Source: Proteus vulgaris (GTDB lineage Bacteria; Pseudomonadota; Gammaproteobacteria; Enterobacterales; Enterobacteriaceae). Taken from it: DNA of 64,000 nucleotides. Shown piece by piece: positions 1 through 16,605 of the stretch. Position 1 is the stretch's first letter, and every line of letters begins with the position of its first letter. The DNA is taken from NCBI RefSeq assembly GCF_033708015.1, contig NZ_CP137920.1, forward strand, positions 3,968,001 through 4,032,000, read 5' to 3'. A program made the translations under genes and the position numbers. The notes under the pieces were generated by a model that saw only the letters and a list, made by a program, of their open reading frames with translations, was not told the origin of the DNA and made no database searches.

Positions 1-365
1 GTAATGAAAGGTCAAAATTACTCAGTTATATTAAACGTATTGAGCCTGATAGTGGCACACCATTAGCTGAATCTATTAAACGTGCAGGTAATTTAATTAA
101 AGGCAATAATCGTGACACGATTATTGTGTTGTTATCAGACGGTTTAGAATCTTGCGATCAAGATCCATGTGCAGCGGCGAGAACCTTAAAACGCGCTCAC
201 CCTCGCGCCATTATTAATGTTGTCGATATCTTAGGTACTGGTGCAGGTAACTGCGTTGCCGATGCCACTGGCGGAAAAGTCTTCACTGCGCGTAATGCGA
301 ATGAAGTCAGTTTAATGACACGAAAAGCGATTGAAGATTATATTCCGAAGAACTGTAATGATTGA
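1..365 (+). CDS. VWA-domain protein, C-terminal part (5' end outside window)
   Basis: The reading frame is open from base 3 to the stop at 363-365, so only about 120 C-terminal residues are visible. The stretch IIVLLSDGLESC is the typical central strand of a von Willebrand A domain with its metal-site Asp (LSDG). A following strand (INVVDILGTGAGNC) and the terminal helix complete the fold. Two cysteine pairs (ESCDQDPC and GNC) suggest an oxidising, extracytoplasmic location, although the signal peptide would lie outside the window. A hairpin terminator follows, so it is probably transcribed separately from the srf operon 550 bp downstream, although that operon also contains a VWA protein. Function is unknown: VWA domains bind proteins through a metal ion. 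Confidence 0.8.
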   Translation, partial: NERSKLLSYIKRIEPDSGTPLAESIKRAGNLIKGNNRDTIIVLLSDGLESCDQDPCAAARTLKRAHPRAIINVVDILGTGAGNCVADATGGKVFTARNANEVSLMTRKAIEDYIPKNCND

Positions 366-922: not shown

Positions 923-2410
923 ATGATCGTCGTGAATAAAGCATTCTTACGAAGTGGTAAATTAGAAAATTACCTCCCAATGGGGGAAAATGGACAGGCT
1001 GTTTATATCTCTGCACTGCAGCTGCGTGAAACTCTACGTTTAAGAGGAAAGGCTCATATTTCTCAATGCCTTGCTATTCCTCAGCCAAATGAAACTGGCG
1101 AACGCATTGACTGGTATTCACCGATTGACGGCTCTGTTATTCCTTGGTCTGCGGCTTCAGAAGAAGAGCGCGCCGCCGCTTATGCTTTACTGAAAAAGAA
1201 CCAAGATGATTTAATCGCCTTCAGTGAACAAGAACAACAAAAGACTGGAAATAAAGAAAGTCAGCTATTTGGTGCTCTGCTCAGTAAAACGATCCAATTT
1301 CCTGACGAAAACCATATTTTTATTGTTGATGGACAACCGATTATTACTTTTTGGGGTTTTGTCAATGCCAACCAACAACTTAGAGCTGATCCTGTTGCTT
1401 GCTTAAAACCCGCTGTTGTCCCTATTGCACCCACATCAACAGCAGTTCCACCAGCACAAGAAGAAAAAATCATTATTACTGATACGAAACGCTCTTGGTG
1501 GCGCTTCTTATGGTGGTTGTTACCTTTATTATTGCTTCTACTCGCAATTTTCTTTTTAAGAGGTTGTTTCTCAACGCCAGCGTTACCGATGATCGATAGT
1601 AAAACACCCGATATTGAAGCGCCTAAATTGCCAGAACCGACGCTTGAAAAACCGAAAGTCCCCACAGTAGTTACTCATGGCCACACAGTCGGCGTACCAA
1701 CAGGTACAGTTCATACAGGAACATTAGGTACCGTAGAGGCGAATGGAAATGTGATTGATAGCACTGGTGGTAATAGCACACAGGCTGATCCTAATACGGA
1801 TTTATCTAGGGTAGATCCTCAAACAGACAATAACCAAGGTGCATTGCCTGAAGGAATATTACCTGAAGAAGCACAACAACCGACTGTACCGCCGGTTGAT
1901 CCTACTACACAAAATGAGCAACCGAAAACAGATAACACTCCAAATATGGGAAATGAGAGTAAACCCTCTACCCCGCCTGTTGATCCCAATGCGCCACCCG
2001 ATGTCACACCGCCCACGACAGCAGATAACACAACACCACTGACCATTCCTGCGAATGCGTTAGCGAATGGCTCAACCCAGTTCCTGAATGGTCAATGGAA
2101 AGCTGGGGCAGGAATTCAAGATCAAAAAACAGGTAAACCACTGAGCCTGAATTACCAACTCGATAATGGTAAAGGGCAAGTCGTCATGACACGCAGTGAT
2201 GGCGTGACCTGTAAAGCCCCTGTCAATGCAACCATTAATCAAGGCGGATTAAATATTAATAACCAAGGTCAAGCTCTGTGCAGTGATGGTTCAAACTATT
2301 TGATGCCAAATATCATTTGCCAGCCAGGAAGCCAAAATATAGCTGATTGCCAAGGAAAATATGAAAATAATCAGCCATTCCCATTATCAATGAAGCGGGA
2401 GAATAACTAA
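923..2410 (+). CDS. srfA: SrfA family protein
   Basis: First gene of the operon, about 495 residues. The N-terminal part (KAFLRSGKLENYLPMGENGQ, then LQLRETLRLRG) resembles Salmonella SrfA as I recall it. A strongly hydrophobic segment after WRFLWWLLP, about residues 193-214, is a single membrane anchor. It is followed by a long Pro/Thr/Asp-rich linker and a C-terminal domain of about 110 residues with several cysteines (TCKAP, LCSDG, NIICQPG, IADCQG), presumably periplasmic and disulfide-bonded. Start choice: the frame opens at a TTG at 911 without a ribosome site. ATG 923 is listed, while GTG 932 has a better-spaced GCGGA upstream and is equally possible. srfB follows after 3 bp. The Salmonella srfABC genes were named as SsrB-regulated factors; the biochemical role is not established. 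Confidence 0.85.
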   Translation: MIVVNKAFLRSGKLENYLPMGENGQAVYISALQLRETLRLRGKAHISQCLAIPQPNETGERIDWYSPIDGSVIPWSAASEEERAAAYALLKKNQDDLIAFSEQEQQKTGNKESQLFGALLSKTIQFPDENHIFIVDGQPIITFWGFVNANQQLRADPVACLKPAVVPIAPTSTAVPPAQEEKIIITDTKRSWWRFLWWLLPLLLLLLAIFFLRGCFSTPALPMIDSKTPDIEAPKLPEPTLEKPKVPTVVTHGHTVGVPTGTVHTGTLGTVEANGNVIDSTGGNSTQADPNTDLSRVDPQTDNNQGALPEGILPEEAQQPTVPPVDPTTQNEQPKTDNTPNMGNESKPSTPPVDPNAPPDVTPPTTADNTTPLTIPANALANGSTQFLNGQWKAGAGIQDQKTGKPLSLNYQLDNGKGQVVMTRSDGVTCKAPVNATINQGGLNINNQGQALCSDGSNYLMPNIICQPGSQNIADCQGKYENNQPFPLSMKRENN

Positions 2411-2413
2411 TTC

Positions 2414-5398
2414 ATGTTAGCGCCACTGACCGATTATAAAGATAAAATTACCCTTATCCGAGACAGTAATATTCAGTTTCTGGATTTTGGCTTTAAGCTA
2501 CCACAACGTAAAGAATACGGTGAGTTTGTTAAAAAAGGCGAAAACGGCCCATTAATGCGACTCATCTATAATGAACGAGATGATAACTATCTTTATCCTG
2601 CACCTAAGGATCAGCCTCAAACCCCGAGAGAAGCTGAATTTAGTTTCTCCCTTGAAGCGTCATTAACACTCTTAAATGACACATGGCTACCTGTACCATT
2701 TTTCCGCTTTAATCCACCACGAGCGTTCTCTCAAGGCCCTGATAACTGGGTAAGAATGATGTTCCATCAACTGACAGAGCCAGATGAAGATGGGCATACA
2801 CATCGCGTTGTTGTGGCATTTGACACACGAATTGAGCCGAATCGCGCCAATACAGCTTATCTGGCACCAAACGAAGAAGATGTTCGCTCGGGTGTTGCTT
2901 TTGCGCTTGCCTATTTAGGCTATGAAGTTGAGAACTTCCTTGAAACACCATGGATTGATGGTTGGTTAAAGGAAGTCTTTAGCGAAAGAGCGCTGGCGGT
3001 GACTAAAATGTACCATGATGAACTTGAAGATGCGCTCAAAGAGTTTCAACATCAGGCACATTATCTCAATTTGCTCAATATATTAGGTGAGAAACTACAC
3101 TTGCCTGAAATCAAAATTAACGAAACCAAACCGCAAGAGCCCGCGATTGACGTTGATCTTATTCTTGATGTGGGTAACTCACGTACCTGTGGGATCTTAA
3201 TTGAAGATCATATCAATGATAACAAAGGGTTAACGCAACTCTATGAAATGACGCTGCGTGATTTAAGTCACCCTTATCAAATCTATAATGAACCATTTGA
3301 AAGCCGTGTTGAATTTGCGCAAGCGGAATTTGGTAAACAAGATTTTTCAGTTAATAGCGGTCGCAACAATGCCTTTATGTGGCCCACTATTGGTCGCGTT
3401 GGCCCTGAAGCCAATCGCATGGCAGCGCAACGGTTAGGAACGGAAGGCTCAACGGGTATTTCAAGCCCTAAACGCTATTTATGGGATGACTCACCATATT
3501 CTCCAGGTTGGCGCTTTAGCCGCTCTTTTGGTCAAACAGACCGAGAGCCACTGGCGACGGCTGTTCCAATGACATACCTGCTAAACGATCACGGTGAACC
3601 GTTATTCCGTTTAGAACCAGATGATCGCATGCCAGTATTTACGCCAAACTATACTCGCAGTTCATTAATGACCATGATGTTAACCGAAGTGTTAGCACAA
3701 GCATTGACGCAAATGAACAGCCCAGCTCAACGCCTTAAAATGAGTCACGCAAGTGCGCCTCGTCAGTTGCGCAATATCATTTTGACTATTCCACCTGCAA
3801 TGCCAAAACCCGAGCGTGCAATTTTTGAAACGTGCATGGAAAACGCATTAGGGCTCATTTGGAAAGCAATGAATTGGGATCCGACGGATGAGAAACTCCG
3901 TTTTGATGGTAAAGATGAACAATGCCGTATCCCGATGCCAAACATCCATGTGAAATGGGATGAAGCCACTTGTGGCCAGTTAGTTTACCTCTATAACGAA
4001 ACACAAATTAAATTTGGTGAGCGTACTGAAGCCTTTTTTGCCAGCCAAGTGCGTGAAGATAACCGCGCATTAACGGGTGATAGCGCCTTAAAGATTGCCT
4101 CAATAGATATTGGTGGCGGAACAACCGATCTCGTGATCACACGCTATAAACTGGATACGGGGACGGGGAGCAACGTCAAAATTATTCCAACACAGTTATT
4201 CCGTGAAGGATTCAAAATTGCAGGTGATGATATTTTATTAGATATCATCCAGATTTGCGTATTGCCTGCATTACGCACAGCATTAACGGATGCGGGTATT
4301 TCTGATGCTGATGCGCTGATGTCTTCTCTTTTTGGGAGCGAAGGTTTAGATGCAGGGCAACAAGTGTTACGCCAACAGCTTACCCTACAAATCTTTAATC
4401 CGATTGGGTTAAAGATTTTAAGCCAATACGAAAACTACGATCCATTAGTTCCTCATGAAGGCATTAACAGTACTTTTGGTGAATTACTTAGCGTTCTACC
4501 TACAGAGCATGTACGTCGTTATATTGATGACGCAACGAATAAAGAGCTCGGTGGCGGCGACAGTTTCTCCATTTTAAATGTGCCTGTACAAATTAACTTT
4601 GCACAATTACACGCTGAGTTTATTTCGGGTGAACGTATTAATATCACCCGTAGTTTAAAAGCCCTATGTGAAGTGCTTTATTACTACTCCTGTGATGTTT
4701 TATTGCTGACGGGTCGCCCTTCTCGTTTACCGGGTATTCAGGCGCTATTAAAAGTATTACAGCCTGTACCGCCTTCGCGTATTCTGCCATTACACGGCTA
4801 CAAAACAGGTGGTTGGTATCCATTCAACAAAAAAGGTCGTATTGACGATCCAAAATCTACCGCGGCAGTCGGTGCGATGCTGTGTTTAATGGCTGAAAAT
4901 GCACGTTTGCTCAACTTCTACTTCTCAACAGGTAACTTTAAAACGTATTCAACCGTCCGTTATTTAGGGATGTTGGATAATAACAACACAATTTCCGATA
5001 ATGACGTTTACTACCGTGATATTCAGGATAAATTTGAGCCTGATCCTGATACCTATTTCGAAGTCAGAGGCGGGATCCGCTTAGGTTTCCGTCAATTAGA
5101 TAATGCCCGTTGGCCAGCATCTCCACTTTATACCTTACGCATTAAAAATCCGAAATTGGCGCAACAACTTAGCCAAGAAGACAGCGTATTGCATATCAAG
5201 CTTGGAGAAGAAAGAGGCGCCTCTGGTCATAATAATGACAATAAATCTGAAAAATTACGTATTGAAGAAATGGAACTGATTAATGGCAAAGGTGGCGTTA
5301 ATAAAAACGGGTTAAGTTTCAAACTCAATACGTTAGCAGATAGTGGTATTGGTGAAACATCCTATTGGCTGGATAGCGGGAGTGTATTAGGTAAATGA
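2414..5398 (+). CDS. srfB: SrfB family protein with actin-like ATPase motifs
   Basis: 994 residues, the usual SrfB length. The sequence carries the signatures of the actin/Hsp70/FtsA (ASKHA) nucleotide-binding fold: a phosphate-1 loop DVGNSRTCG at about residue 252, a phosphate-2 loop DIGGGTTD at about 565, and an adenosine-type loop TGRPSRLPG near 767. It therefore probably binds ATP and is cytosolic; no signal peptide or membrane segment is seen. Roughly the first 240 residues form an unrecognised N-terminal domain. The ATG is 3 bp after srfA, and the TGA stop overlaps the srfC start (ATGA), indicating translational coupling. It is annotated in databases as a virulence factor, but the motifs point to an intracellular ATPase rather than an exported effector. 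Confidence 0.9.
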   Translation: MLAPLTDYKDKITLIRDSNIQFLDFGFKLPQRKEYGEFVKKGENGPLMRLIYNERDDNYLYPAPKDQPQTPREAEFSFSLEASLTLLNDTWLPVPFFRFNPPRAFSQGPDNWVRMMFHQLTEPDEDGHTHRVVVAFDTRIEPNRANTAYLAPNEEDVRSGVAFALAYLGYEVENFLETPWIDGWLKEVFSERALAVTKMYHDELEDALKEFQHQAHYLNLLNILGEKLHLPEIKINETKPQEPAIDVDLILDVGNSRTCGILIEDHINDNKGLTQLYEMTLRDLSHPYQIYNEPFESRVEFAQAEFGKQDFSVNSGRNNAFMWPTIGRVGPEANRMAAQRLGTEGSTGISSPKRYLWDDSPYSPGWRFSRSFGQTDREPLATAVPMTYLLNDHGEPLFRLEPDDRMPVFTPNYTRSSLMTMMLTEVLAQALTQMNSPAQRLKMSHASAPRQLRNIILTIPPAMPKPERAIFETCMENALGLIWKAMNWDPTDEKLRFDGKDEQCRIPMPNIHVKWDEATCGQLVYLYNETQIKFGERTEAFFASQVREDNRALTGDSALKIASIDIGGGTTDLVITRYKLDTGTGSNVKIIPTQLFREGFKIAGDDILLDIIQICVLPALRTALTDAGISDADALMSSLFGSEGLDAGQQVLRQQLTLQIFNPIGLKILSQYENYDPLVPHEGINSTFGELLSVLPTEHVRRYIDDATNKELGGGDSFSILNVPVQINFAQLHAEFISGERINITRSLKALCEVLYYYSCDVLLLTGRPSRLPGIQALLKVLQPVPPSRILPLHGYKTGGWYPFNKKGRIDDPKSTAAVGAMLCLMAENARLLNFYFSTGNFKTYSTVRYLGMLDNNNTISDNDVYYRDIQDKFEPDPDTYFEVRGGIRLGFRQLDNARWPASPLYTLRIKNPKLAQQLSQEDSVLHIKLGEERGASGHNNDNKSEKLRIEEMELINGKGGVNKNGLSFKLNTLADSGIGETSYWLDSGSVLGK

Positions 5399-8109
5399 AT
5401 ATGATGGATGAAAAACAGTTAACAGCCAAATGGGATGCCATTTATCAAGGTGCAGGTAAAGCCATTGATTGGGTGACGGCAGTAAGAGGTAATGCGCCTC
5501 GTTTAAATACCGAAGCCGATAGCCTTATCTATCGTCTACGCCGTAGCCGTAATATGGCAAAAAATCTCAGTTTAGCAACACAGCGCCCCATGTCTGTGGG
5601 CTTTTTTGGTCTCTCTCAAGCAGGAAAATCGTACCTGATTTCAGCACTTGCCGCAGGGCAAGAGGGTAGATTAAGAACCAGTATGGCAGGTAAAACACTT
5701 GATTTTATCGACCATATCAACCCACCGGGCGGCGGTAAGGAAGCGACTGGTTTAGTGACTCGCTTTAGCCGCAATGCCACAAAAGGTACACAAGCGTTTC
5801 CTGTCGAGTTGCATCTTTTCAGCGAAATTGAGATCGTTAAAATTCTCGCCAATGCTTACCTGTATGATTTTAATCAAGAAAAAATTGAATTTGAACTAGA
5901 TGACGAGAAAATTTCTCGTTTAATCAATTCATTAAGCACACAATGCAATGCGACACCTGTTGCCGGTATTACTCATGATGATGTTGTTTCATTATGGGAT
6001 TATCTGCAACGCCACGCGGAAAAAAGCCAGAAAAAACTGGCAACAACCTATTGGCCTAAAGCGATTGAATTAGCGCCTTATCTCAACATTGCACAACGCG
6101 CTAAACTCTTTTCTGTTTTATGGGGCGATATTGCAGAGCTCACTTCCGCTTATCAACGTTTTAGCACCACACTTGCTTCTTTAGGTAATGCCTCTCTTGT
6201 TTTAGCCCCGCTCTCTGCGTTAGTTAAAGAGCAAGACGGCGTGTTAGTACAAGAAGACAGTATTATGAACGTAGATATGTTAGAGCGTCTCAATACTGCC
6301 AATGATAGCCAGATCAGCATTTGTCCTGTTCATGGCGATCATATTGATGCCCCTGTTACCCTTTCGTTAGCAGAGTTAACCGCACTGACGGTTGAATTAG
6401 TCGTCCCATTATTAGATGCACCAAGTAAAACCCTGTTTGAACATGTTGAGCTGCTCGATTTTCCGGGCTATCGCGGTCGTTTAGGGGTTGAAACCATGGC
6501 GGATGTACGTCGTCAAGTCAACGATGATAGTGCTAACCCTCTGGCACAACTTATTCTTCGGGGTAAAGTTGCCTATCTGTTTGAACGTTATACCGATAAT
6601 CAAGAGATGAATGTGTTAGTGGTATGTACTGCATCAAACAAACAGTCAGATGTAAAAGAAGTCGGTGCTGTTCTCACAGAATGGATCAACAATACACAAG
6701 GCAAAGATGCACAAACTCGAGCTAAACGTCCTTCAGGTTTAATTTGGGCAATGACCATGTTTGATATGCGTATTACCAACTCTTTAACCATGAATGAAGC
6801 GTTATTACGCCAATCATGGGGCAAAGGTGGCATGATCAAAATGGCAATGCTAGAGCGCTTTGGTCAATATGAATGGATGTCATCCGATTGGATCAATGGT
6901 GAAGCCTTTAATAACACCTTCTTAGTACGTAAACCCAGTGTACCTACCCCATTTATTCAAATCAGTAATGGCAAAGAGATTGTTCTCAATGAGGACAGTG
7001 TTTCACAATTACATCTGATGAAAAAAACCTTTACTGAAGATGAAACTGTCCAACGCTATATTCGTGAGCCAGACCAAGCATGGGAGGCGATGTTGTCGCT
7101 TAACGATGGGGGGATGCAACGCCTTGCAGACTACCTTGAAACCGTTGCATTAAAATCACTAAAACTTGAACGTATTAGCGAGCAATTGCAAGAAATTCAA
7201 CGTGATTTAATTGGTCATCATCTTGAAAAATGGTATCAATCCGGTGGTGAAGAAGAGCTTCAAGTCAAACGTCGTAATGCAGCCACTATCTTACGCTTTA
7301 TGCAAAGTCGCCCTTATCTACAAGGTGCCTTGCTAGATTATCTTCTGCCTTCGCGTAAATCACTCTACGACCTGTATATGCAAGAAAAAGAGATTGTTGA
7401 TTCGCTTTCAGATAACAAAAAAGCGACTCAAGCCCCAGTTTCTGCTTTTGCAGCTATGGAGCAACCCACTTTCGATCTCTTTAGCGATGCGCCAATTTCT
7501 CTGGTCTCAGAAGAAGATGAAGCCCCTAAAGGTCACGGTAATGAGGTTACCTACCCTAAAAAAGTGATGGCATTATGGATAAACCATCTGCGCAGCCTGC
7601 CAGATAACGGTACGTTGTTAACCTATTTAGGCATTGATCAAGAAATTATGGTGCTGTTAGTTGATGAGCTTATCACGGCGATTAACCGCCTTGGTGTTGA
7701 ACAACGTATGTTGAAAACCCTTGCAGGCACCGAAGCCATCGCTCGACGCGATGACTTAGCCGAACAGCAATCATCTCGCGTATATAATGTACTGGGCGAC
7801 TTTATTACTTGGTTTAATTTCAAAGATAACGGGGTTGAAAAGCCAGATAGCAAAATCAATGTTGGTCATAAAATCTTTGAAAGACCCGATAACACGAGTG
7901 TGCAATGGGCTGATGATGAGCGTTTAGTTCGCTTACCGACCAACCCCGTTAACTATACTCTTTTATTTGTGATTGATTGGCTTATCGCTTTATCAGCGAT
8001 TATTACCGAGAATGCGGGGCATTCTGCGGGAAGAGAGATCAGTGCTGAACAAAATGCACTGTTAGGTCAAATCATTCAAACCATGAAATCATCCATCGTG
8101 GAGTCATAA
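5395..8109 (+). CDS. srfC: SrfC family protein with P-loop GTPase motifs
   Basis: 904 residues. A Walker A/G1 loop GLSQAGKS lies at residues 72-79, and DFPG at 355-358 is a good G3 (DxxG) motif, so this is a probable large P-loop GTPase, perhaps dynamin-like in outline. No clear NKxD G4 motif was identified. No signal peptide or membrane span is evident, so it should be cytosolic or peripheral. The ATG at 5395 overlaps the srfB stop; in-frame ATGs at 5401 and 5404 are alternative starts. The next gene begins 3 bp after the stop. Function is not established; the family belongs to the srfABC set. The pairing of an actin-like ATPase with a P-loop NTPase suggests a nucleotide-driven cytoplasmic machine. 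Confidence 0.9.
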   Translation: MNMMDEKQLTAKWDAIYQGAGKAIDWVTAVRGNAPRLNTEADSLIYRLRRSRNMAKNLSLATQRPMSVGFFGLSQAGKSYLISALAAGQEGRLRTSMAGKTLDFIDHINPPGGGKEATGLVTRFSRNATKGTQAFPVELHLFSEIEIVKILANAYLYDFNQEKIEFELDDEKISRLINSLSTQCNATPVAGITHDDVVSLWDYLQRHAEKSQKKLATTYWPKAIELAPYLNIAQRAKLFSVLWGDIAELTSAYQRFSTTLASLGNASLVLAPLSALVKEQDGVLVQEDSIMNVDMLERLNTANDSQISICPVHGDHIDAPVTLSLAELTALTVELVVPLLDAPSKTLFEHVELLDFPGYRGRLGVETMADVRRQVNDDSANPLAQLILRGKVAYLFERYTDNQEMNVLVVCTASNKQSDVKEVGAVLTEWINNTQGKDAQTRAKRPSGLIWAMTMFDMRITNSLTMNEALLRQSWGKGGMIKMAMLERFGQYEWMSSDWINGEAFNNTFLVRKPSVPTPFIQISNGKEIVLNEDSVSQLHLMKKTFTEDETVQRYIREPDQAWEAMLSLNDGGMQRLADYLETVALKSLKLERISEQLQEIQRDLIGHHLEKWYQSGGEEELQVKRRNAATILRFMQSRPYLQGALLDYLLPSRKSLYDLYMQEKEIVDSLSDNKKATQAPVSAFAAMEQPTFDLFSDAPISLVSEEDEAPKGHGNEVTYPKKVMALWINHLRSLPDNGTLLTYLGIDQEIMVLLVDELITAINRLGVEQRMLKTLAGTEAIARRDDLAEQQSSRVYNVLGDFITWFNFKDNGVEKPDSKINVGHKIFERPDNTSVQWADDERLVRLPTNPVNYTLLFVIDWLIALSAIITENAGHSAGREISAEQNALLGQIIQTMKSSIVES

Positions 8110-8112
8110 TTC

Positions 8113-9108
8113 GTGTTTAATCCAGAATTAAAACCCGTACAACCTGCTCGACCTGGCTTTGCGGTATTAAGCATTCGAAATTGGGAAGGTGACGCTTCCC
8201 CTGTTTATTTAAGCATTCAGCGTAATCAAGATCGCTATTTCTTAAATGATAAAGGGGAATGGGTAGGTAATGCCTTTTTCCACCAGCTGTCACTTGAAGA
8301 TGCTGAGGACGGCTATCAAATCGTTCTTGATAAAACGTTGGTCGATCCCCTCGTTAGCAACTTACAAATGGCGTATCAATTTACGTTAAAAGACGATAAC
8401 GAAACACAAGATATCGGACGATTGCGTATTCGTGATGGTGTCTTAGCCTCACAAGCACAAGGTCAAAGTGAAGCATTAAAATCAACGGCAACGTTAGATA
8501 CTCAAGCCGTTCCACCCACTCCCATTGTCGAAACTTCACCAGAGCCTGAATCAATCAAAGAGCCTGAGCCAATTATTCCTGAAATGAAGGTGGATGAACC
8601 GCCACAACGACCAACACCACCTGCACCGAAAAAATCAAAAATTGGCTTAATTTTAGCGATTATCCTGATTTTAATTTTAGCGGGTATCTTAACGTGGTTC
8701 TTCTTACTAAGAGGCAATCCAGCAGGCGAACCTGCACCACAACCGACACCAGAACCGGCAACAACCAGTGTGTGCAGTGTTGAAAACATGAAATCAGGTA
8801 CCGCATTAGCCTTTGTACAAAGTTGTATACAGAGCCAACCAGATAGCAAGACTATCCTTGCAACGATCTCACTCGCAAAACAGAACAATCAATGTGATGT
8901 GGCTCAGCGTTTATATGCTTATAAAGCACAATCAGGTGATGTTGATATCGCACTGAATTACGCTCGTGAATACGATCCAGAAACGGCATCAGCACAAGGC
9001 TGCTTTAGTGCCGACAAAGAAACCGCCATTTATTGGTACGAAGCGGTTCTTAATTATGACTCACAAAACAGTGACGCCAAAGCGCGTCTTGAAGCTTTGA
9101 AAAAATAG
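8113..9108 (+). CDS. single-pass membrane protein with TPR/Sel1-like C-terminus
   Basis: Starts at GTG 8113, 3 bp after srfC; 331 residues. The first ~130 residues look like a small cytoplasmic beta-rich domain (RPGFAVLSIRNWEGDASP onward). A Pro/Glu-rich linker leads to a membrane span at about residues 177-198 (IGLILAIILILILAG). A periplasmic Pro-rich stretch and a helical C-terminus follow, with four Cys (SVCSVE, SCIQS, NQCDVA, GCFSAD) and alternating Ala/Tyr/Leu helices reminiscent of Sel1/TPR repeats (IYWYEAVLNYD). Topology is N-in, C-out, like SrfA. I do not recognise a named family. Its place in the operon suggests it links the cytosolic SrfB/SrfC to the periplasmic proteins downstream. 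Confidence 0.8.
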   Translation: MFNPELKPVQPARPGFAVLSIRNWEGDASPVYLSIQRNQDRYFLNDKGEWVGNAFFHQLSLEDAEDGYQIVLDKTLVDPLVSNLQMAYQFTLKDDNETQDIGRLRIRDGVLASQAQGQSEALKSTATLDTQAVPPTPIVETSPEPESIKEPEPIIPEMKVDEPPQRPTPPAPKKSKIGLILAIILILILAGILTWFFLLRGNPAGEPAPQPTPEPATTSVCSVENMKSGTALAFVQSCIQSQPDSKTILATISLAKQNNQCDVAQRLYAYKAQSGDVDIALNYAREYDPETASAQGCFSADKETAIYWYEAVLNYDSQNSDAKARLEALKK

Positions 9109-9117
9109 GAAAGTCGC

Positions 9118-11121
9118 ATGAAAAAGGCGCATTGGCTTACTCTTATTCTCAGCGGTTTAATTCTCACAGCGCCAGCCAGTGCTGAAGAGAAAAAACCACT
9201 ATTACAAGAGGGTAAAAAGACTCTCTATCAGCGTGTATTAACCTACCCAGGTTGCCAAGTGGCAGACACAATTGGCGCGGCAGGTAAAGAACAACCCGCA
9301 TTTAGCCGTTTTTATGTCTATCAGCGTCAAAAACAAGGCGCCAATGAATGGCTACAAGTCGGCCCTGATAGCTTGGGTCATATTAGCGGTTGGATGAATG
9401 CAAGCTGTACATCTGAATGGAAAATGCAATTAACGCTGGCTTTTACTAACCCAGCGGGTCGTAACCCAATGCTATTTTTCAAAGATAAACAAACGGTTGA
9501 AGGCTTACTTGAAAGCCCAACGCCTGAAAAACAGTACCAACCTTTTTTAGCTGATATCAAAAATCAAAAAGTTAATCCGGCTGTTTTAGCTAAAGAGCCT
9601 GATTATATGATTGATCAAAAAAGTAATTTTTATCTGTTGCCTGTACTCGGATCAGATGAAGTCTTTACTGATGCGGGCTATAAAGTCCGCGTGCTCAATG
9701 TGGCTTCTGTCTCTTCTCAAACCAAAGACAGAAAAAACGCACAGAATGCGAATGCGGCTGCAAACAGTGCAAAACCGGCAACACCAGACAGCAAAGATGC
9801 TGACAATATGATGCAAGGTTTTTCTGCGGCAGTAGTGTTTGTTATCGACTCAACAATATCCATGGATCCCTATATTGATAGAACCAAAGAAGCGATCCAA
9901 AAGGTTTATGCACAAGTCGAAAAAGACAACATGTTGGATAAGGTTAAATTTGGTTTAGTCGCGTTTCGCTCTAATATCAAAGCCGTCCCCGCATTGGAAT
10001 ATGACAGCAAGATGTTTGTTAATCCTAATGATGTGAAAGATGGTCCCGATTTCCTGAATAAAGTTAAAGAATTACGCCAAGCTAAAGTCTCAAGTAGTCG
10101 TTTTGATGAAGATGCTTACGCTGGTGTAATGCAAGCCCTTGATGATGTTGATTGGACACGTTTTGGTGCGCGCTACATTATTTTAATCACCGATGCAGGC
10201 GCATTAACGGGAGATGATCCTCTCTCATCAACGAAGCTCGATGCTGAACAAATTCGCCAAGAAGCCGCTTATCGCGGTGTTGCACTTTATACATTGCACT
10301 TAAAAACCCCATCAGGAGCAAAAAATCATGCTTCTGCACAAGCGCAATATGAGGCATTAACGCTGAATCCGTTCTTACACAAATCCCTTTACTACCCTAT
10401 CAACTCAGGAGATGTAAATAGTTTTGGTCGAATGGTCGATAGTCTAGCCACCGCAGTCACCACTCAAATTCAAACGGCTTATCGTGGCGAAGCAGCAGTA
10501 GGTAGCGCATTAAATGCTGATCCTGCGTATAGCAAAGATAAAGAGACAGATACCTTACTAAACGATGCGCACGATTTAGGCTATGCAATGCGTTTAGCTT
10601 ATTTAGGTGAAAAGCAAGGTACAAAAGCGCCTCCTGTCTTTAAAGCATGGATAAGTGATCGGGACTTATTACAGCAAAATATCCCAACGACAGAAGTACA
10701 AGTTTTACTGACTAAAAGTGAGCTTAGCGATTTAAGTGATGTAATGAAAAAAATTGTTAATGCGGCTAATGAAGGCTTGATCTCGCCTGACAATATGTTT
10801 GCTGATTTACGCTCAATTGCTGCCACGATGGGGAACGATCCCAATCAAATCAAACAAGGTTCAGCAACTAAATTAGGTGAAATGGGCTTACTCGGTGAAT
10901 ATGTCGAAAACTTACCTTACTTGAGTGAAGTCTTAGGGTTAGATGAAGAAACTTGGAAAAGCTGGGATGGGCTAGAACAAGAGAAGTTTATCCGTCGCCT
11001 CAATACCAAGTTGCAATACTACCAACGTTATAATGAAGATGTTGATCGTTGGATATCCCTCGCACCGCAAAGCGATCCGCGCGATCACGTTTATCCGGTT
11101 CCACTGGAAAACTTGCCTTAA
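9118..11121 (+). CDS. periplasmic VWA-domain protein, PpkA C-terminus-like
   Basis: 667 residues with a clear signal peptide (hydrophobic LTLILSGLILTAPASAEE, cleavage after ASA at about residue 22). A VWA domain begins at about residue 240. Its metal site is DSTIS at 244-248 (canonical DxSxS with Thr at position 3), and a second Asp lies in LITDAG at 359. The sequence VVFVIDSTISMDPYIDRT resembles the periplasmic VWA region of PpkA, the T6SS threonine kinase, but no kinase domain is present here. The C-terminal ~200 residues are helical. The stop TAA overlaps the ATG of the ABC ATPase (TAATG). By analogy with the Pseudomonas TagQRST-PpkA pathway it could be the periplasmic receiver of an envelope signal; this is inference from gene order and VWA similarity. 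Confidence 0.85.
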   Translation: MKKAHWLTLILSGLILTAPASAEEKKPLLQEGKKTLYQRVLTYPGCQVADTIGAAGKEQPAFSRFYVYQRQKQGANEWLQVGPDSLGHISGWMNASCTSEWKMQLTLAFTNPAGRNPMLFFKDKQTVEGLLESPTPEKQYQPFLADIKNQKVNPAVLAKEPDYMIDQKSNFYLLPVLGSDEVFTDAGYKVRVLNVASVSSQTKDRKNAQNANAAANSAKPATPDSKDADNMMQGFSAAVVFVIDSTISMDPYIDRTKEAIQKVYAQVEKDNMLDKVKFGLVAFRSNIKAVPALEYDSKMFVNPNDVKDGPDFLNKVKELRQAKVSSSRFDEDAYAGVMQALDDVDWTRFGARYIILITDAGALTGDDPLSSTKLDAEQIRQEAAYRGVALYTLHLKTPSGAKNHASAQAQYEALTLNPFLHKSLYYPINSGDVNSFGRMVDSLATAVTTQIQTAYRGEAAVGSALNADPAYSKDKETDTLLNDAHDLGYAMRLAYLGEKQGTKAPPVFKAWISDRDLLQQNIPTTEVQVLLTKSELSDLSDVMKKIVNAANEGLISPDNMFADLRSIAATMGNDPNQIKQGSATKLGEMGLLGEYVENLPYLSEVLGLDEETWKSWDGLEQEKFIRRLNTKLQYYQRYNEDVDRWISLAPQSDPRDHVYPVPLENLP

Positions 11122-11813
11122 TGATCCAGATTGAAGGCATGGCAATTACGCGTGGTGATGCGCAACATGGTTTTCGTGTTGCGCTTCCTTCATTGACCCT
11201 TGAAAAAGGAGAAATTTGCGCGCTAACAGGGCTAAGTGGTTGTGGGAAAAGTACCTTACTAGAAATGATTGGGCTAATCTTACGCCCTGACGAATTAACG
11301 CATTTTCAACTTGATAATGAGTTAATTATCACACAAGCGTTGTTGAATAATGAACAAACTCAACTTGCATCATTACGTGCTGAAAAATTGGGTTTTATGC
11401 TCCAAAGCGGTGGGTTACTCCCCTTTTTAACCGTTATGCAAAATATTCAATTACCTCGCAAAATGCTGGGATTAACGCAACACTCTGCTTGGCTCGATCA
11501 CGCGATTGAGCATCTGCAATTACGCCCCTTACTTAGTCGCTTTCCTCGCCAACTCTCTATTGGTGAGCGCCAACGCGTAGCATTTATTCGTGCCATCGCC
11601 CATGAGCCCGCTTTATTACTTGCTGATGAACCCACCGCAGCCCTTGATCCCCATAATGCGCAAGTGCTGTATGCACTCATTGTCGAAATGGTAAAGCAAC
11701 TGGATATCTCTGCACTGGTTGTGAGTCACGATTGGTCTTTAGTCGAGCGTTTTGGTTTTAACCACTATCACGCACAACTTGAAGGAGGCGGTAGTGTCTT
11801 TATCAAACAATAG
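11121..11813 (+). CDS. ABC transporter ATP-binding protein (LolD/MacB type, TagT-like)
   Basis: 230 residues from ATG 11121, which overlaps the preceding stop; a longer upstream frame would run through the VWA gene and is not used. Walker A GLSGCGKS (37-44), Walker B LLLADEP, D-loop AALDP and H-loop VVSHD are intact. The signature reads LSIGE instead of LSGGQ, a mild variant. Its length and single domain fit the MacB/LolD class, which works with an FtsX-type permease to do mechanical work on envelope proteins rather than to import solutes. The permease follows with a 20-bp overlap. Between a PpkA-like VWA gene and an FGE-like gene it occupies the position of TagT in the Tag signalling cluster. 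Confidence 0.9.
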   Translation: MIQIEGMAITRGDAQHGFRVALPSLTLEKGEICALTGLSGCGKSTLLEMIGLILRPDELTHFQLDNELIITQALLNNEQTQLASLRAEKLGFMLQSGGLLPFLTVMQNIQLPRKMLGLTQHSAWLDHAIEHLQLRPLLSRFPRQLSIGERQRVAFIRAIAHEPALLLADEPTAALDPHNAQVLYALIVEMVKQLDISALVVSHDWSLVERFGFNHYHAQLEGGGSVFIKQ

Positions 11814-13029
11814 CGCCAATCCTAATCGCCTAGGCTTACTTTGCTCACTCGCTTGGCGTGACTTAATTTATGATCGCAAAGTCGCACTCTGTATTGTGTT
11901 CTCTTTAGTTTCTGTGATTGCGCCACTACTGCTACTGTTTGGACTAAAGAATGGCATTGTAACGCAGCTTCACAACCAACTGCTAAATGATCCTCGTAAC
12001 CTTGAAATACGTATGTTAGGTAATGGCAACTACCCTCAAACTTGGTTTGATGAAATTGCGCAAAAAGAAGAAGTTCGTTTTGTTATCCCATTAACACGTA
12101 GCTTAAACACACAAGCCGATATTGTGATTGATGGGCAACATTTTATTGATAATGCCGAAATTATTCCGACGGCAGAGCACGATCCTTTATTAGAGGGTGC
12201 GACTATTCCTCAAAATGCAGACACCTTAGTGCTCTCTGCCAATGCGGCACAAAAACTACAGGCGAATGTAGGCGATAGTGTGCGCTTATTTATCAGCCGT
12301 AAGCTTAATGGTGTCAATGAACGAGCCAAACGTACCTTTACAGTCAGTGCCATTATCAGTGATAGCAAGTTTCCAAGAGCAGCCGCTTTTGTTTCTCTTG
12401 ATGTTTTAGTCGCAATGGAAGATTACCGAGATGGTTATCAAGCACCTCTTTTTGGCGTAACACAAGGCGTTGAAGCAAAACCAAGAACCCAGTTTGCTAA
12501 AGCTCGCCTTTATGCAAAAAATTTAGATGCCATTGCGCCTCTTGATGATTGGTTTAGACAACAACACATCGATGTGATGACACAAAAAAGCCAAATAGAC
12601 GCTGTAAAAGCAATCAGCTACGTCCTTAACGTAATTTTCTCCGTGATTGCATGGGTATCACTATTAGGCTGCATTGCCTCATTAATTGGTGCATTCCTTG
12701 CCAATATTGACCGTAAACGCAAAGACATGGCTGTACTACGTCTATTAGGTTTTCGTCAATTTGCCGTCTCTTTATATATTGTGTTGCAAGCACTGCTATT
12801 AACCAGTGTTGCCTTTATTTTAGCCCTTGGGCTTTATACCATCGGTAGCGCCTTATTTACCTCATTATTAGGTACACATTTACCTGAACAAGCCTTTGTT
12901 TGTCAGTTAACATTTTGGGATTTATTGATTGCCATGTGCAGTGCCTTACTGGTGGCCTTAGTGGTGGCAAGTATTGGCGCATTACGTGCCGTTTCGATTG
13001 AACCAGCGGAGAGCTTACGTGAAATTTAA
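11794..13029 (+). CDS. FtsX-type ABC permease (TagS-like)
   Basis: 411 residues from GTG 11794, preceded by GGAGG at the right distance; the frame opens upstream, but those codons lie inside the ATPase gene. Topology is MacB/LolC-like: one N-terminal membrane span (VALCIVFSLVSVIAPLLLLF), a periplasmic domain of about 230 residues, then three C-terminal spans (ISYVLNVIFSVIAWVSLLGC; a second around VLQALLLTSVAFILALGLY; a third around LLIAMCSALLVALVVASIGA). It ends in the family's typical tail SIEPAESLREI. Overlaps with both neighbours indicate translational coupling. With the preceding ATPase it should form the TagST-like inner-membrane complex of this locus. Substrate is unknown. Confidence 0.9.
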   Translation: MSLSNNSANPNRLGLLCSLAWRDLIYDRKVALCIVFSLVSVIAPLLLLFGLKNGIVTQLHNQLLNDPRNLEIRMLGNGNYPQTWFDEIAQKEEVRFVIPLTRSLNTQADIVIDGQHFIDNAEIIPTAEHDPLLEGATIPQNADTLVLSANAAQKLQANVGDSVRLFISRKLNGVNERAKRTFTVSAIISDSKFPRAAAFVSLDVLVAMEDYRDGYQAPLFGVTQGVEAKPRTQFAKARLYAKNLDAIAPLDDWFRQQHIDVMTQKSQIDAVKAISYVLNVIFSVIAWVSLLGCIASLIGAFLANIDRKRKDMAVLRLLGFRQFAVSLYIVLQALLLTSVAFILALGLYTIGSALFTSLLGTHLPEQAFVCQLTFWDLLIAMCSALLVALVVASIGALRAVSIEPAESLREI

Positions 13030-14575
13030 TTTATCGCTGCTAACTTTATCATTCGCGCTGTTATCTAGCAGTTTTACCGCATCTGCCAAATGGGACGATA
13101 AATTCGTTAACCCAAAAGCTTTACCTGATGATGTGATCTTGCCTTTCCCTTGTGACGGTTCAATGATCTTTCGCCAAGTCACTATTCCATTAAGTCAACC
13201 GTTACAAGACTACAGCGTGACGCTAGGGCAAGAAGGCGATGAATGGGGTTATTTAGAGCAATCACGAGCTGAACATATTGCGGGTAGTTTCCCACTAAAA
13301 GGCAAAGAAAAAGGCCGTTATTACCTTATGGCGAAATATCCAGTTACTGATCTGCAATATAACGCCATGCAGAGCGTGGTTAACGGTAAAGAGTGCCCTG
13401 TTGCTTCAAATAAATTACGTTTACCAAAAGTGAATATCAGTTGGTATGAAGCAATGCAATTTGCAGATCAATATAACCAATGGTTAAGAAGCAAACATCC
13501 AGAAGCACTCCCTGTTGAAGATGGCGCAAAAGGTTTTGCAAGATTACCGACAGAAACAGAATGGGAATTTGCGGCGCGTGGTGGTTTAAACGTCTCTGCC
13601 TCAGAATTTCGTGATATGCGTTTCCCAATGCCAGAAGGCACCAAAAACTATATTTGGTCAGCAGGTAGCCAATCCGCTAATGGCTCATTACAGCTCACCG
13701 GTTTGTTATCACCGAACCCACTTGGCTTACATGATATGTTGGGTAATGTCGCTGAAATGATGTTTGAGCCTTTTAGACTCAATAAACTCGACCGCTTACA
13801 TGGACAAGCGGGTGGATTTATTGTGCGCGGTGGTAGCTATCTCACCCCAGAAAGCGATATGCGCAGTTCATGGCGTCAAGAAGAGCCTTATTACACTAAT
13901 ACTGGTGCGAATAAAAACAAATACACAGGCTTTCGTTTAGCGATAGTTGCCCCAGCATTAACCTCACGTGACAAAATCAAAGAGATAGAAAAAGAGTGGC
14001 AACAATTAGGTAATGAGAAACCCGCTAACAATAAATCAAAAACCAATAGCGATAATTCCATTAATAGCCTAAATACGCTATCAACCCAAGTACAAGATGA
14101 AGCATTGAAGAAACAATTAGCTGAATTGAAAAATACATTACGCGCAAACGCACAACTGCGTGATGAACAACGAGATCAAGCTATCCGCACTTCACTGCAA
14201 TTAGGTGCTTTTTTATGTACCAAATTAAAAGATGATGGCGAATTTTATGATCGATTAATCGCTCTCCATGAAAAAAACTGCCCTACTGGCACAAAAGATG
14301 CCACATGTGAGCGACGTCAAGCGCAAGTTAATGAACATAAAAAAACCCTCGACTTTGTTGTGAGCTATTACGCAGACACCTTAGTGGATATGGCAACAAC
14401 GTATGATGCTTCTTTAGTAAAACCTCAAATTGACGTTGTACGCCAATTGATGGAGGCCAGAGGAAAATCCAATTTAAATACGTACCTTTCAACGTATATG
14501 CAAGGACTGCAAGGATATTGGGCTAATGGTAAAGTTTCACGCAATGAATGGCTTGAAGCGTGCAAAAAACAATAA
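13019..14575 (+). CDS. periplasmic formylglycine-generating-enzyme-like (SUMF1/FGE-sulfatase) protein, TagR-like
   Basis: 518 residues from GTG 13019 (overlapping the permease stop), giving a clean signal peptide ending SSSFTASA-K at about residue 25; a longer frame start at 12974 would bury it. FGE-fold landmarks: YYLMAKYPVTDLQYNAM, LPTETEWEFAARGG, GLHDMLGNVAEMM, FIVRGGSYLTPESDMRSSWR and YTGFRLAI. No sulfatase is nearby, so this is probably a binding or scaffolding version of the fold, as in TagR, the periplasmic regulator of PpkA. The C-terminal ~190 residues (after about 330) are helical and charged, with paired cysteines (FLCTKL, KNCPTG, ATCERR, EACKKQ). This helical extension is longer than the FGE domain requires. 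Confidence 0.87.
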   Translation: MKFNLSLLTLSFALLSSSFTASAKWDDKFVNPKALPDDVILPFPCDGSMIFRQVTIPLSQPLQDYSVTLGQEGDEWGYLEQSRAEHIAGSFPLKGKEKGRYYLMAKYPVTDLQYNAMQSVVNGKECPVASNKLRLPKVNISWYEAMQFADQYNQWLRSKHPEALPVEDGAKGFARLPTETEWEFAARGGLNVSASEFRDMRFPMPEGTKNYIWSAGSQSANGSLQLTGLLSPNPLGLHDMLGNVAEMMFEPFRLNKLDRLHGQAGGFIVRGGSYLTPESDMRSSWRQEEPYYTNTGANKNKYTGFRLAIVAPALTSRDKIKEIEKEWQQLGNEKPANNKSKTNSDNSINSLNTLSTQVQDEALKKQLAELKNTLRANAQLRDEQRDQAIRTSLQLGAFLCTKLKDDGEFYDRLIALHEKNCPTGTKDATCERRQAQVNEHKKTLDFVVSYYADTLVDMATTYDASLVKPQIDVVRQLMEARGKSNLNTYLSTYMQGLQGYWANGKVSRNEWLEACKKQ

Positions 14576-14599
14576 CAGAGACTTTGAGATAGGTGTGGT

Positions 14600-15283
14600 A
14601 TGAACAAACAACTTATGGCTGTACTTAGCATTAGTACATTACTTGCCTTATCAGGATGCCAAAGCAATAACGGTACTGATCCTCGATTAAAAAACAACAG
14701 TGATATGGAATTTTTCAGCAAATCAGGCATTACAGCTTGTGCAGGGGGGGCTGCAATTGGGGCATTAGGATGCTTAGTCTCAAATTCCAGCAATAAAGGC
14801 GCATGTATGCTCATTGCTGCTGTCGCGGGTTGTGGTGTCGGTATTGGTGCAAATGCCTATTTAGACAACAAACGCCAAAATTACGCGACAAAAGAAGAGA
14901 TGCTCAATTCCATGATTGCTGACATTCAAAATGAAAATCAGCGTTTACAAAGTGCCTCTAACACAGCGAAAGCGGTGATTGCTGATGATAAAAAAGCCAT
15001 TGCAAAAATTCAGCAAGATATGAAACAGCAACGTTTAAATAAAGAAGCCGCAGAGAAACAACTCAAAGGTATTGATGCCAATATTGCAGCACTTCGCTCA
15101 CGCTTAGCAGATATGAAAAAACGTGAAAATGAATGGCGTGATATCGCAGCGCAAAGCCGTCAAGATGGCTTAAAAACAGCACAGCTTGATAAACAAATCA
15201 ATGGGATGAAGCAACAAGTTGCCTCTTTACAAGAAGAGCTTGATAGCCTTTATACTCAACGCACTGCAATAAGACTTAGTTAA
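14600..15283 (+). CDS. outer-membrane lipoprotein with glycine zipper and coiled coil (TagQ position)
   Basis: 227 residues. A type II signal peptide ends in the lipobox LALSGC, with Cys20 as the lipidated residue and Gln at +2, which predicts sorting to the outer membrane. A Gly/Ala-rich segment (AGGAAIGALGC, then AAVAGCGVGIGAN) at about 48-85 could be a glycine-zipper membrane-interacting hairpin. It is followed by about 130 residues of charged heptad-like sequence, probably a coiled coil long enough to reach across the periplasm. It starts 24 bp after the FGE-like gene. In the Tag cluster this place is held by the lipoprotein TagQ, but sequence similarity to TagQ is not something I can confirm. 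Confidence 0.8.
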   Translation: MNKQLMAVLSISTLLALSGCQSNNGTDPRLKNNSDMEFFSKSGITACAGGAAIGALGCLVSNSSNKGACMLIAAVAGCGVGIGANAYLDNKRQNYATKEEMLNSMIADIQNENQRLQSASNTAKAVIADDKKAIAKIQQDMKQQRLNKEAAEKQLKGIDANIAALRSRLADMKKRENEWRDIAAQSRQDGLKTAQLDKQINGMKQQVASLQEELDSLYTQRTAIRLS

Positions 15284-15297
15284 AATTAAAAAGGATA

Positions 15298-15789
15298 ATG
15301 ATGAAATTTTTACCACTTTCCCTTCTCGGAATGACCTTACTTTTAAGTGGATGTGTGACTAATCCAGCGGATTGTGATCCGACAACAGGCGATGTCAGCA
15401 TTATCACCAAATTTAATTGTAATTACTCAGGGACTTACGATAACCGTATTGAGCAAAAAAAAGTGATCCTAGGCAATGAACAAGCATTAAATAGAGAATT
15501 TAAAGCTGTTTTAGCTGCCATTGAAAAAGAAAAGCAACAAACTAATGCCAGCCTCAAAACCCAACAAGCAAACCAACGCGCATTAAATCAATCAATGACC
15601 AATCTGTTAAATCAAATTCGCCAAAAAACGAAAGGGCAAAATGATATTCAAAAGCAGATCAATGAAATTGATAAACAAATGAAAGCAGCCCAAAACAACC
15701 CATCAAAATCAGTGATGGAAAAACAACTTGAGCTAGAAAATTTACAAAATCAGGTCATTAGCCTACAAAGTGATTTAGGCCTTAAATAA
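15298..15789 (+). CDS. small coiled-coil lipoprotein, last gene of the srf operon
   Basis: 163 residues. The lipobox LLLSGC gives Cys19 as the acylated residue with Val at +2, consistent with the outer membrane. A short Cys-containing segment (ADCDPTT, KFNCNYSG) precedes a long Gln/Lys/Asn-rich coiled coil (about residues 50-163). It starts 14 bp after the previous lipoprotein with AAGGA upstream, and the two share the same plan (lipobox, Cys-bearing head, coiled coil), so they may pair or be distant paralogues. A hairpin follows immediately. No named family recognised. Confidence 0.8.
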   Translation: MMKFLPLSLLGMTLLLSGCVTNPADCDPTTGDVSIITKFNCNYSGTYDNRIEQKKVILGNEQALNREFKAVLAAIEKEKQQTNASLKTQQANQRALNQSMTNLLNQIRQKTKGQNDIQKQINEIDKQMKAAQNNPSKSVMEKQLELENLQNQVISLQSDLGLK

Positions 15790-15796
15790 ACCTAAA

Positions 15797-15825
15797 AAGG
15801 CTCTCATTATTATACAGAGAGCCTT
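15797..15825 (+). terminator. stem-loop at the end of the srf operon
   Basis: A perfect 9-bp stem AAGGCTCTC (15797-15805) / GAGAGCCTT (15817-15825) begins 7 bp after the last stop. The downstream T run is poor (TTCCACCTTATT), so termination efficiency is uncertain. The A-rich left flank would supply U residues on the opposite strand. Confidence 0.6.
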
Positions 15826-16053: not shown

Positions 16054-16605
16054 ATGAAAACGAAATTACTATCTGCTTTATTTATAAGTGGCTTATTGGC
16101 GACCTCTTCTGTTTATGCTCAAAATGATTTTACATTAGATAAAACCACACTTTCAGCAGGTTATGCACAAGTCAAAATGGCTGGTCAAAATCCAATGCAT
16201 GGCGGTGTTTTTTCTATTCGCCAAGAAGTCAATTCACAATTTGGTCTTTTAGTCACAACGACTTACGCCCAAAATGAATATGATCTAAATAAATCGATTA
16301 ATACTTTCTTTAAAGACGTCAATGCACGTTATTACTCTGTTATGGCGGGCCCCACAGTACGTTTAAATGATTTTATTAGTGTTTATGGCACGGCAGGGAT
16401 GAGCCAAATTCAATTTAAATCTGAACATTCTGAATTAAAAAAAGTAAAGAAAAATGCATTTAGTTGGGGCGCAGGTTTAATCATTAATCCAGCAGAAATG
16501 GTTTCTATTTCTCTCGGATATGAAAATAGCCGTTTTAAATTTAAAAACACCGATGACCGAATTATTTTAGATGGTTTTATTGCTAATATCGGTTATCGTT
16601 TTTAA
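16054..16605 (+). CDS. Ail/Lom-type outer-membrane beta-barrel protein
   Basis: 183 residues with a signal peptide (LFISGLLATSSVYA, cleavage at about residue 22) and alternating amphipathic strands of an eight-stranded barrel. It ends with an aromatic C-terminal residue (ANIGYRF), the BAM-recognition signature. Strand motifs such as LSAGYAQVKM, YYSVMAGPTVRLND and FSWGAGLIINPAEMVSISLGYENS match the Ail/Lom/OmpX family, which acts in adhesion, serum resistance or surface stability. It is a single-gene unit: about 260 A+T-rich bases separate it from the srf operon, and its own terminator follows. Whether it is functionally linked to the srf locus cannot be told. Confidence 0.85.
   Translation: MKTKLLSALFISGLLATSSVYAQNDFTLDKTTLSAGYAQVKMAGQNPMHGGVFSIRQEVNSQFGLLVTTTYAQNEYDLNKSINTFFKDVNARYYSVMAGPTVRLNDFISVYGTAGMSQIQFKSEHSELKKVKKNAFSWGAGLIINPAEMVSISLGYENSRFKFKNTDDRIILDGFIANIGYRF

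Follow-up and report, generated by a model that had tools for sequence, protein, structure and literature searches.

A TagQRST-PpkA-like envelope module without its kinase, joined to SrfABC in Proteus vulgaris: a candidate trans-envelope damage relay

We analysed a window of 64,000 nt from Proteus vulgaris (contig NZ_CP137920.1, positions 3,968,001-4,032,000, assembly GCF_033708015.1; coordinates below are positions in this stretch), in which srfA, srfB and srfC are joined to relatives of the Pseudomonas TagQRST-PpkA genes. We propose, with a probability of about one half (0.5), that this locus is a kinase-free trans-envelope damage relay that drives SrfB and SrfC, with protection or remodelling of the inner membrane as the result. 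The sensor would comprise two outer-membrane lipoproteins (a TagQ-like protein and Lp10), a TagR-like FGE-fold protein, a TagST ABC complex and a periplasmic VWA protein. With the kinase half of PpkA gone, the signal would travel through a single-pass protein with TPR/Sel1-like helices (P4), SrfA and a SrfA-VWA protein; these adaptors would signal to a cytosolic complex of SrfB, an actin/Hsp70-type ATPase, and SrfC, a dynamin-like GTPase. GTP-driven SrfC would then act close to the damage, at the inner membrane, which it would most likely stabilise, tether or reseal. The parts of the locus, their order, the absence of the kinase, the independence from the type VI secretion system (T6SS) and the predicted fold of SrfC rest on homology or prediction.

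Reading the open reading frames of the window, we found ten long frames on the + strand between 932 and 15789, separated by short gaps or overlapping (Table 1). This agrees with an initial annotation of the stretch, whose names for the three srf genes, the VWA, ABC, FtsX and FGE domains and the two lipoproteins were borne out by profile matches and lipoboxes. Of the 80 nearest loci, which are the best 80 of at least 531 relatives and not an independent sample, 79 keep the complete order, and the second lipoprotein gene holds the same place in 79/80; the seven closest named loci are from Proteus, at 93-98% identity. Because the order is so kept, the cluster is not a product of chance. All ten genes were thus confirmed, but the list was one gene short: directly upstream lies an eleventh, cut by the window start, whose product (read at L005:10872-12365) has a SrfA-like N-domain followed, by eye, by a transmembrane segment and a Pro-rich linker, and then a VWA_2 domain. 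This SrfA-VWA protein carries hallmark domains of the srf half and the Tag half in a single chain. Homologs above 80 bits occur at 93 of the 152 loci searched and, among the 80 named loci, at 76; the fetched stretches of 13 loci with srfABC alone, which reach ~2 kb upstream of srfA, contain none.

The union of srfABC and tag genes is already known, having been in print since 2013 (PMC3608642). Campbell 2013 (PMC3608642) described a ten-gene srf-tag neighbourhood in host-associated Deltaproteobacteria, in which srfABC, an unknown gene, tagQ/R/S/T and 'ppkA' likewise stand together and T6SS machinery is missing in all but one genome, and the neighbourhood has been mentioned for Xenorhabdus (PMC6950479). 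In contrast to our reading, the 2013 paper treats ppkA as a kinase and, in the portion available, mentions neither kinase loss nor the SrfC fold nor other outputs. Our open-access literature searches found no earlier report of the kinase-free PpkA half, the dynamin-like SrfC, its motif decay or swappable outputs.

In sequence comparisons, the second half of the locus is homologous, part by part, to TagRST and the periplasmic half of PpkA, and weakly to TagQ. A TagQ profile exceeded its curated cut-off in 6 of 397 genomes, and we read five of these loci, all Pseudomonas-type. Along transcription they run ppkA-tagT-tagS-tagR, with tagQ after tagR, and the window order is identical; the 'mirror order' of the initial annotation is a map-drawing artefact, because both loci share their transcriptional order. 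Residues 20/25-667 of the window VWA protein align with PpkA along its C-terminal half (E 4e-130 to 3e-138), and the ABC, FtsX and FGE proteins reach E 3e-45 or better against each of the five ppkA loci. Across 18 VWA/PpkA-half proteins (alignment A1), D244, S248 and D359, which we take to be the VWA metal site (MIDAS), are invariant. Aligned with TagS, the permease scored 208-234 bits; aligned with six further FtsX-family permeases from its own genome, it never exceeded 14 bits. The FGE-fold protein behaved alike, with 193-205 bits for TagR and no more than 18 bits for any of three other FGE proteins, drawn from its own and two other genomes. A tree of FGE proteins likewise split the TagR-like proteins from these three (SH-aLRT 95); unlike the pairwise scores, a permease tree whose outgroups were very long failed to split off the TagS-like proteins (4 changes). 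The ABC ATPase alone is less discriminating, because the LolD profile also scores 122 bits against ~150 bits to TagT. The proposed Tag gene set thus holds for TagT, TagS, TagR and the PpkA periplasmic half, while the TagQ-like lipoprotein is weak (29.6 bits to NF041250 versus a 300-bit cut-off); a homolog in genome G337 reaches 55 bits (E 4e-15). By eye, the TagR-like protein has no cysteines where we presume the active-site pair of catalytic formylglycine-generating enzymes to lie. We regard the sensor half of the proposed relay as well supported by this homology. Relative to TagQRST-PpkA, the locus lacks the kinase and T6SS genes and adds SrfABC, P4, the SrfA-VWA protein and a second lipoprotein.

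Profile searches found no Pkinase or FHA family among the ten window proteins and no PpkA-like Pkinase in the genome, where the sole Pkinase matches are frames of 2085 and 506 amino acids elsewhere; the kinase domain is absent, as had been claimed. We rejected the VWA protein itself as a kinase, since profile search found no such domain in it. In public records P0019, P0025 and P0051, VWA homologs that lack the kinase are labelled PpkA or 'serine/threonine protein kinase'. The further claim that T6SS genes are missing is true of the locus but not of the genome: TssC (PF05943, 420 bits) lies ~0.87 Mb away, beside genes that by eye resemble tssB, tssK, tssL, hcp and clpV. Among 26 srf-type genomes tested (a set without G604, G499, G476 and the class-sample genomes), TssC is absent from 11 and present in 15, where it is remote or on another contig, the nearest same-contig case being ~93 kb off (G376); in all six PpkA genomes it stands within ~13 kb of the module. 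These data support the view that the srf-tag system is independent of T6SS in many genomes, in line with the stand-alone system first envisaged. In the T6SS locus at G000:C1:3114084-3117183 (L004), tandem look-alike membrane proteins of 174-198 amino acids lie downstream of a clpV-like gene.

The srf half contributes two predicted nucleotide-binding proteins. In SrfB, the phosphate-1, phosphate-2 and adenosine motifs, which we take to be those of the actin/Hsp70-type (ASKHA) family, are present with key residues invariant in 120/120 rows; the protein has no PDB profile match. SrfC may adopt a dynamin-like fold with a helical stalk: the best PDB fold matches of its AlphaFold model are dynamin-like, but with low TM-scores and large root-mean-square deviations. 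It resembles the bacterial dynamin-like proteins SynDLP, BDLP and IniA in predicted architecture and G motifs, but has no sequence-profile match to PDB chains and is tied to an envelope sensor and an ASKHA-type partner. All four of its GTPase motifs, presumably P-loop, switch T, DxPG and TxxD, occur together in 101 of the 105 module-bearing rows, among them that of the window. Separately, G1, G2 and G3 are intact in 105, 102 and 105 of these rows (the three G2 exceptions have S for T), versus 4, 2 and 3 of 13 rows from loci with srfABC alone; G4 is intact in 104/105 and 13/13. (The comparison leaves out L052, which has a contig break and a masked stretch, L055, and the partial SrfC of L258, L259 and L260.) Eleven of the 13 thus have a damaged G1, G2 or G3, and two keep all four motifs. 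This decay of the GTP site in the clade without the module points to a coupling of SrfC with the module; because the short forms are one clade, it is only suggestive and not independent replication.

We mapped these long and short forms in the phylum sample of 397 Pseudomonadota genomes, counting SrfB above cut-off (a 21.1-bit match in G168 was dropped). SrfB occurs at 27 loci in 26 genomes: 13 carry the VWA-Tag module, including G114, where module and srfABC are on different contigs and both pieces stop at contig ends; 13 are limited to srfABC; and the remaining one (G134) has srfABC-P4 but no module. The two halves therefore travel together often, but not always. All 13 srfABC-only loci fall within the window's own family, where 3/16 SrfB loci have the module, compared with 10/11 outside it, and genome G345 has one locus of each form. 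The 13 short forms share the order srfA, srfB, srfC and have none of the envelope genes; we take the Salmonella operon to be such a short form. In a midpoint-rooted SrfB tree (46 rows) they make up one 100/100 group beside the Enterobacterales long forms, and for this reason we prefer to read the short operon as the derived form. The cassette is widespread in the sampled Pseudomonadota and was found in many Pseudomonas, Azotobacter and Azomonas genomes. It is also carried by plasmids: 119 plasmid records match the Klebsiella version (114 over at least 80%), 117 of them from Klebsiella and 106 predicted to be non-mobilizable. In E. coli it occurs in 31/5426 genomes, all chromosomal, and in strain S1 close to insertion-sequence and integrase genes. 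Copies from a Klebsiella plasmid, a Leclercia plasmid and an E. coli chromosome (L316, L317, L318) were read; in L316 and L317, a Gly-zipper gene (by Pfam for L316) and a small gene stand upstream of srfA instead. An IrmA-family gene lies near the cassette on the Klebsiella and Leclercia plasmids alike.

The same sensor module also occurs with other partners. We surveyed 64 module loci: 21 from the phylum sample, 20 from further A1 matches (those in G507, G519 and G545 being outside the survey) and 23 from a class sample. Srf-type loci number 44, two of them seen just as srfC tails on short contigs. Six have a PpkA fusion (the G232 ppkA locus being classed from frame length and T6SS distance), four a separate kinase, two a TIR protein, and two a tubulin-like protein with a weakly P4-like one (the second copy of G651, and G744); one is a srf remnant (L259), two are unclear (L298, which is cut, and L300), and three (G014, G410, G630) have no recognised output. 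The srf-type count stays at 44 because L259 is a remnant and, in L300, the 3.8 kb preceding the VWA gene contain neither SrfB nor SrfC. In L259 (G499), one frame with SrfA-like and SrfC-tail matches precedes P4 and there is no SrfB, which by sequence marks a decayed or fused srf locus. Separate kinases occur in the T6SS loci of G817 and G651, with a kinase, PP2C and IcmF. In L264 (G558) and L266 (G444), the module is joined to kinases and trypsin-FHA proteins, with FHA and PP2C genes in addition in L264, in genomes without TssC; these are phosphorylation cassettes without T6SS. The TIR-type operons (L093/L104 in G350, L262 in G463) place a TIR protein, an unknown of 287-292 amino acids and a small protein with, by eye, a transmembrane segment ahead of VWA-TagTSRQ, and end in a trypsin/peptidoglycan-binding protein. 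In L312 (G651) and L313 (G744), the module follows a 1000-amino-acid Tubulin_2 protein and the weakly P4-like protein. A VWA tree gathered the included ppkA rows in one 100/100 group, the split-kinase rows in another, and the two TIR rows with G410 in a third, also 100/100.

We put at even odds a broader proposal, that VWA-TagT-TagS-TagR(-TagQ) is a general receptor for outer-membrane damage with an interchangeable cytosolic output (PpkA kinase and T6SS, kinase/FHA without T6SS, SrfBC, TIR or tubulin-like), the T6SS switch being one branch and classical srfABC a branch minus its sensor. If so, T6SS retaliation would belong to a wider family of envelope alarms.

Because the sensor is kept, the kinase dropped and single-pass adaptors added, SrfBC would be the simplest output of the relay at this locus, and the decayed GTP sites, the dynamin-like predicted fold and the swappable outputs strengthen that assignment. 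Membrane sidedness, the direction of signalling, the contacts between the proteins and membrane protection or repair as the output are what we infer beyond it. In P. aeruginosa, the T6SS responds to outer-membrane damage, whether mechanical or chemical, by way of TagQRST-PpkA, which tagQ and ppkA deletions show to be required (PMC11881912). After phage attack, the bacterial dynamin DynA gathers in clusters on membranes, whose integrity it seems to support (PMC8844932); we propose a membrane-protecting output by analogy with it. SrfABC function was still called unclear in 2013 (PMC3608642). A fuller form of SrfABC behind a PpkA/TagQRST damage sensor gives it a testable function, a response to outer-membrane damage. 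Our results also suggest that Pseudomonas T6SS damage sensing would belong to a wider receptor family, present in bacteria without T6SS and on Klebsiella plasmids.

One alternative is that the locus serves conflict or phage defence: a phage, a contractile weapon or a predator would disturb the envelope and so switch on an NTPase complex, which would either kill the cell or protect it. The TIR and tubulin versions of the operon, the Klebsiella plasmid copies and the occurrence in 31/5426 E. coli genomes would fit, as would the delay of phage lysis by DynA (PMC8844932) and the description of GTPase systems with Hsp70, tubulin and vWA partners as conflict systems (Kaur 2020, PMC7159879). The locus has that GTPase-and-partner theme in common with those systems; the words 'Srf', 'FtsX' and 'dynamin' do not occur in the main text of that paper. 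We nevertheless consider defence unlikely: PADLOC matches on the ten window proteins were confined to generic ABC-type ones (mad3 the best, at 94.5 bits) and coiled-coil ones, most plasmid copies are predicted non-mobilizable, and the operon is kept on deep branches.

SrfABC has for a long time carried the label of virulence factor or toxin. Another reading is that it is a secreted or injected toxin complex with the Tag half as its export or trigger device: lysates containing Xenorhabdus SrfABC show cytotoxicity and its proteins associate in a complex (PMC6950479), and Campbell 2013 (PMC3608642) suggested that PpkA might trigger SrfC export. The NTPase motifs of SrfB and SrfC, the dynamin-like architecture predicted for SrfC, the transmembrane segments of SrfA and P4, the presence of the cassette in many Pseudomonas, Azotobacter and Azomonas genomes and the pairing of the same sensor with kinases, TIR or tubulin-like proteins make this quite improbable. 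Equally doubtful is an envelope-maintenance transporter in which TagST would move lipoproteins or lipids in the manner of LolCDE/MacB and SrfBC would aid assembly, with no signalling; the LolD score and weak LolCE/MacB domain matches of the permease agree with it, but the nearest homologs found are parts of PpkA loci, and the module is paired with differing cytosolic effectors. Least probable is that the module is left over from, or remotely regulates, a T6SS elsewhere in the genome, signalling without PpkA, given that, despite its homology to the T6SS Thr-phosphorylation pathway and a T6SS in its own and other srf-type genomes, TssC is far off or missing and kinase and FHA families are unmatched.

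Table 1. Features of the srf-tag locus (positions in the window).
Feature	Position	Strand	Identification
SrfA-VWA gene, 3' end	1..365	+	497 amino acids; start 1128 bases upstream of window; PF13519 2.5e-9
srfA	932..2410	+	NF040486 E 4.7e-137; N-domain, transmembrane segment ~188-219 (hydropathy), C-domain
srfB	2414..5398	+	PF07520 1343 bits; actin/Hsp70-type (ASKHA) ATPase motifs
srfC	5395..8109	+	PF10139 1013 bits; large GTPase-like protein, predicted dynamin-like
P4	8113..9108	+	single-pass; N-terminal beta-sandwich, transmembrane segment, C-terminal TPR/Sel1-like helices
VWA protein	9118..11121	+	PF00092; signal peptide by eye; PpkA periplasmic-half homolog, without kinase
TagT-like ABC ATPase	11121..11813	+	PF00005; ~150 bits to tagT of ppkA loci
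TagS-like FtsX/MacB-type permease	11794..13029	+	PF02687, PF12704; start GTG 11794 by eye
TagR-like FGE-fold protein	13019..14575	+	PF03781 2e-33; GTG start 13019 and signal peptide by eye
TagQ-like lipoprotein	14600..15283	+	NF041250 E 4.1e-7; lipobox LSGC
Second small lipoprotein (Lp10)	15298..15789	+	lipobox LSGC
Hairpin just 3' of operon	15797..15825	+	9-bp stem, -13.8 kcal/mol (RNA fold), without strong T run

The domains of SrfA would lie on the cytosolic and periplasmic sides of the membrane. The domain reading of P4 comes from a predicted model (pLDDT 85, pTM 0.46), fold comparison and alignment A3. The hairpin that follows the operon is not among the entries of the terminator scan. 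Just 3' of the operon, at 16054-16605, lies a gene for a small outer-membrane beta-barrel-like protein, of OmpX/Ail type by eye.
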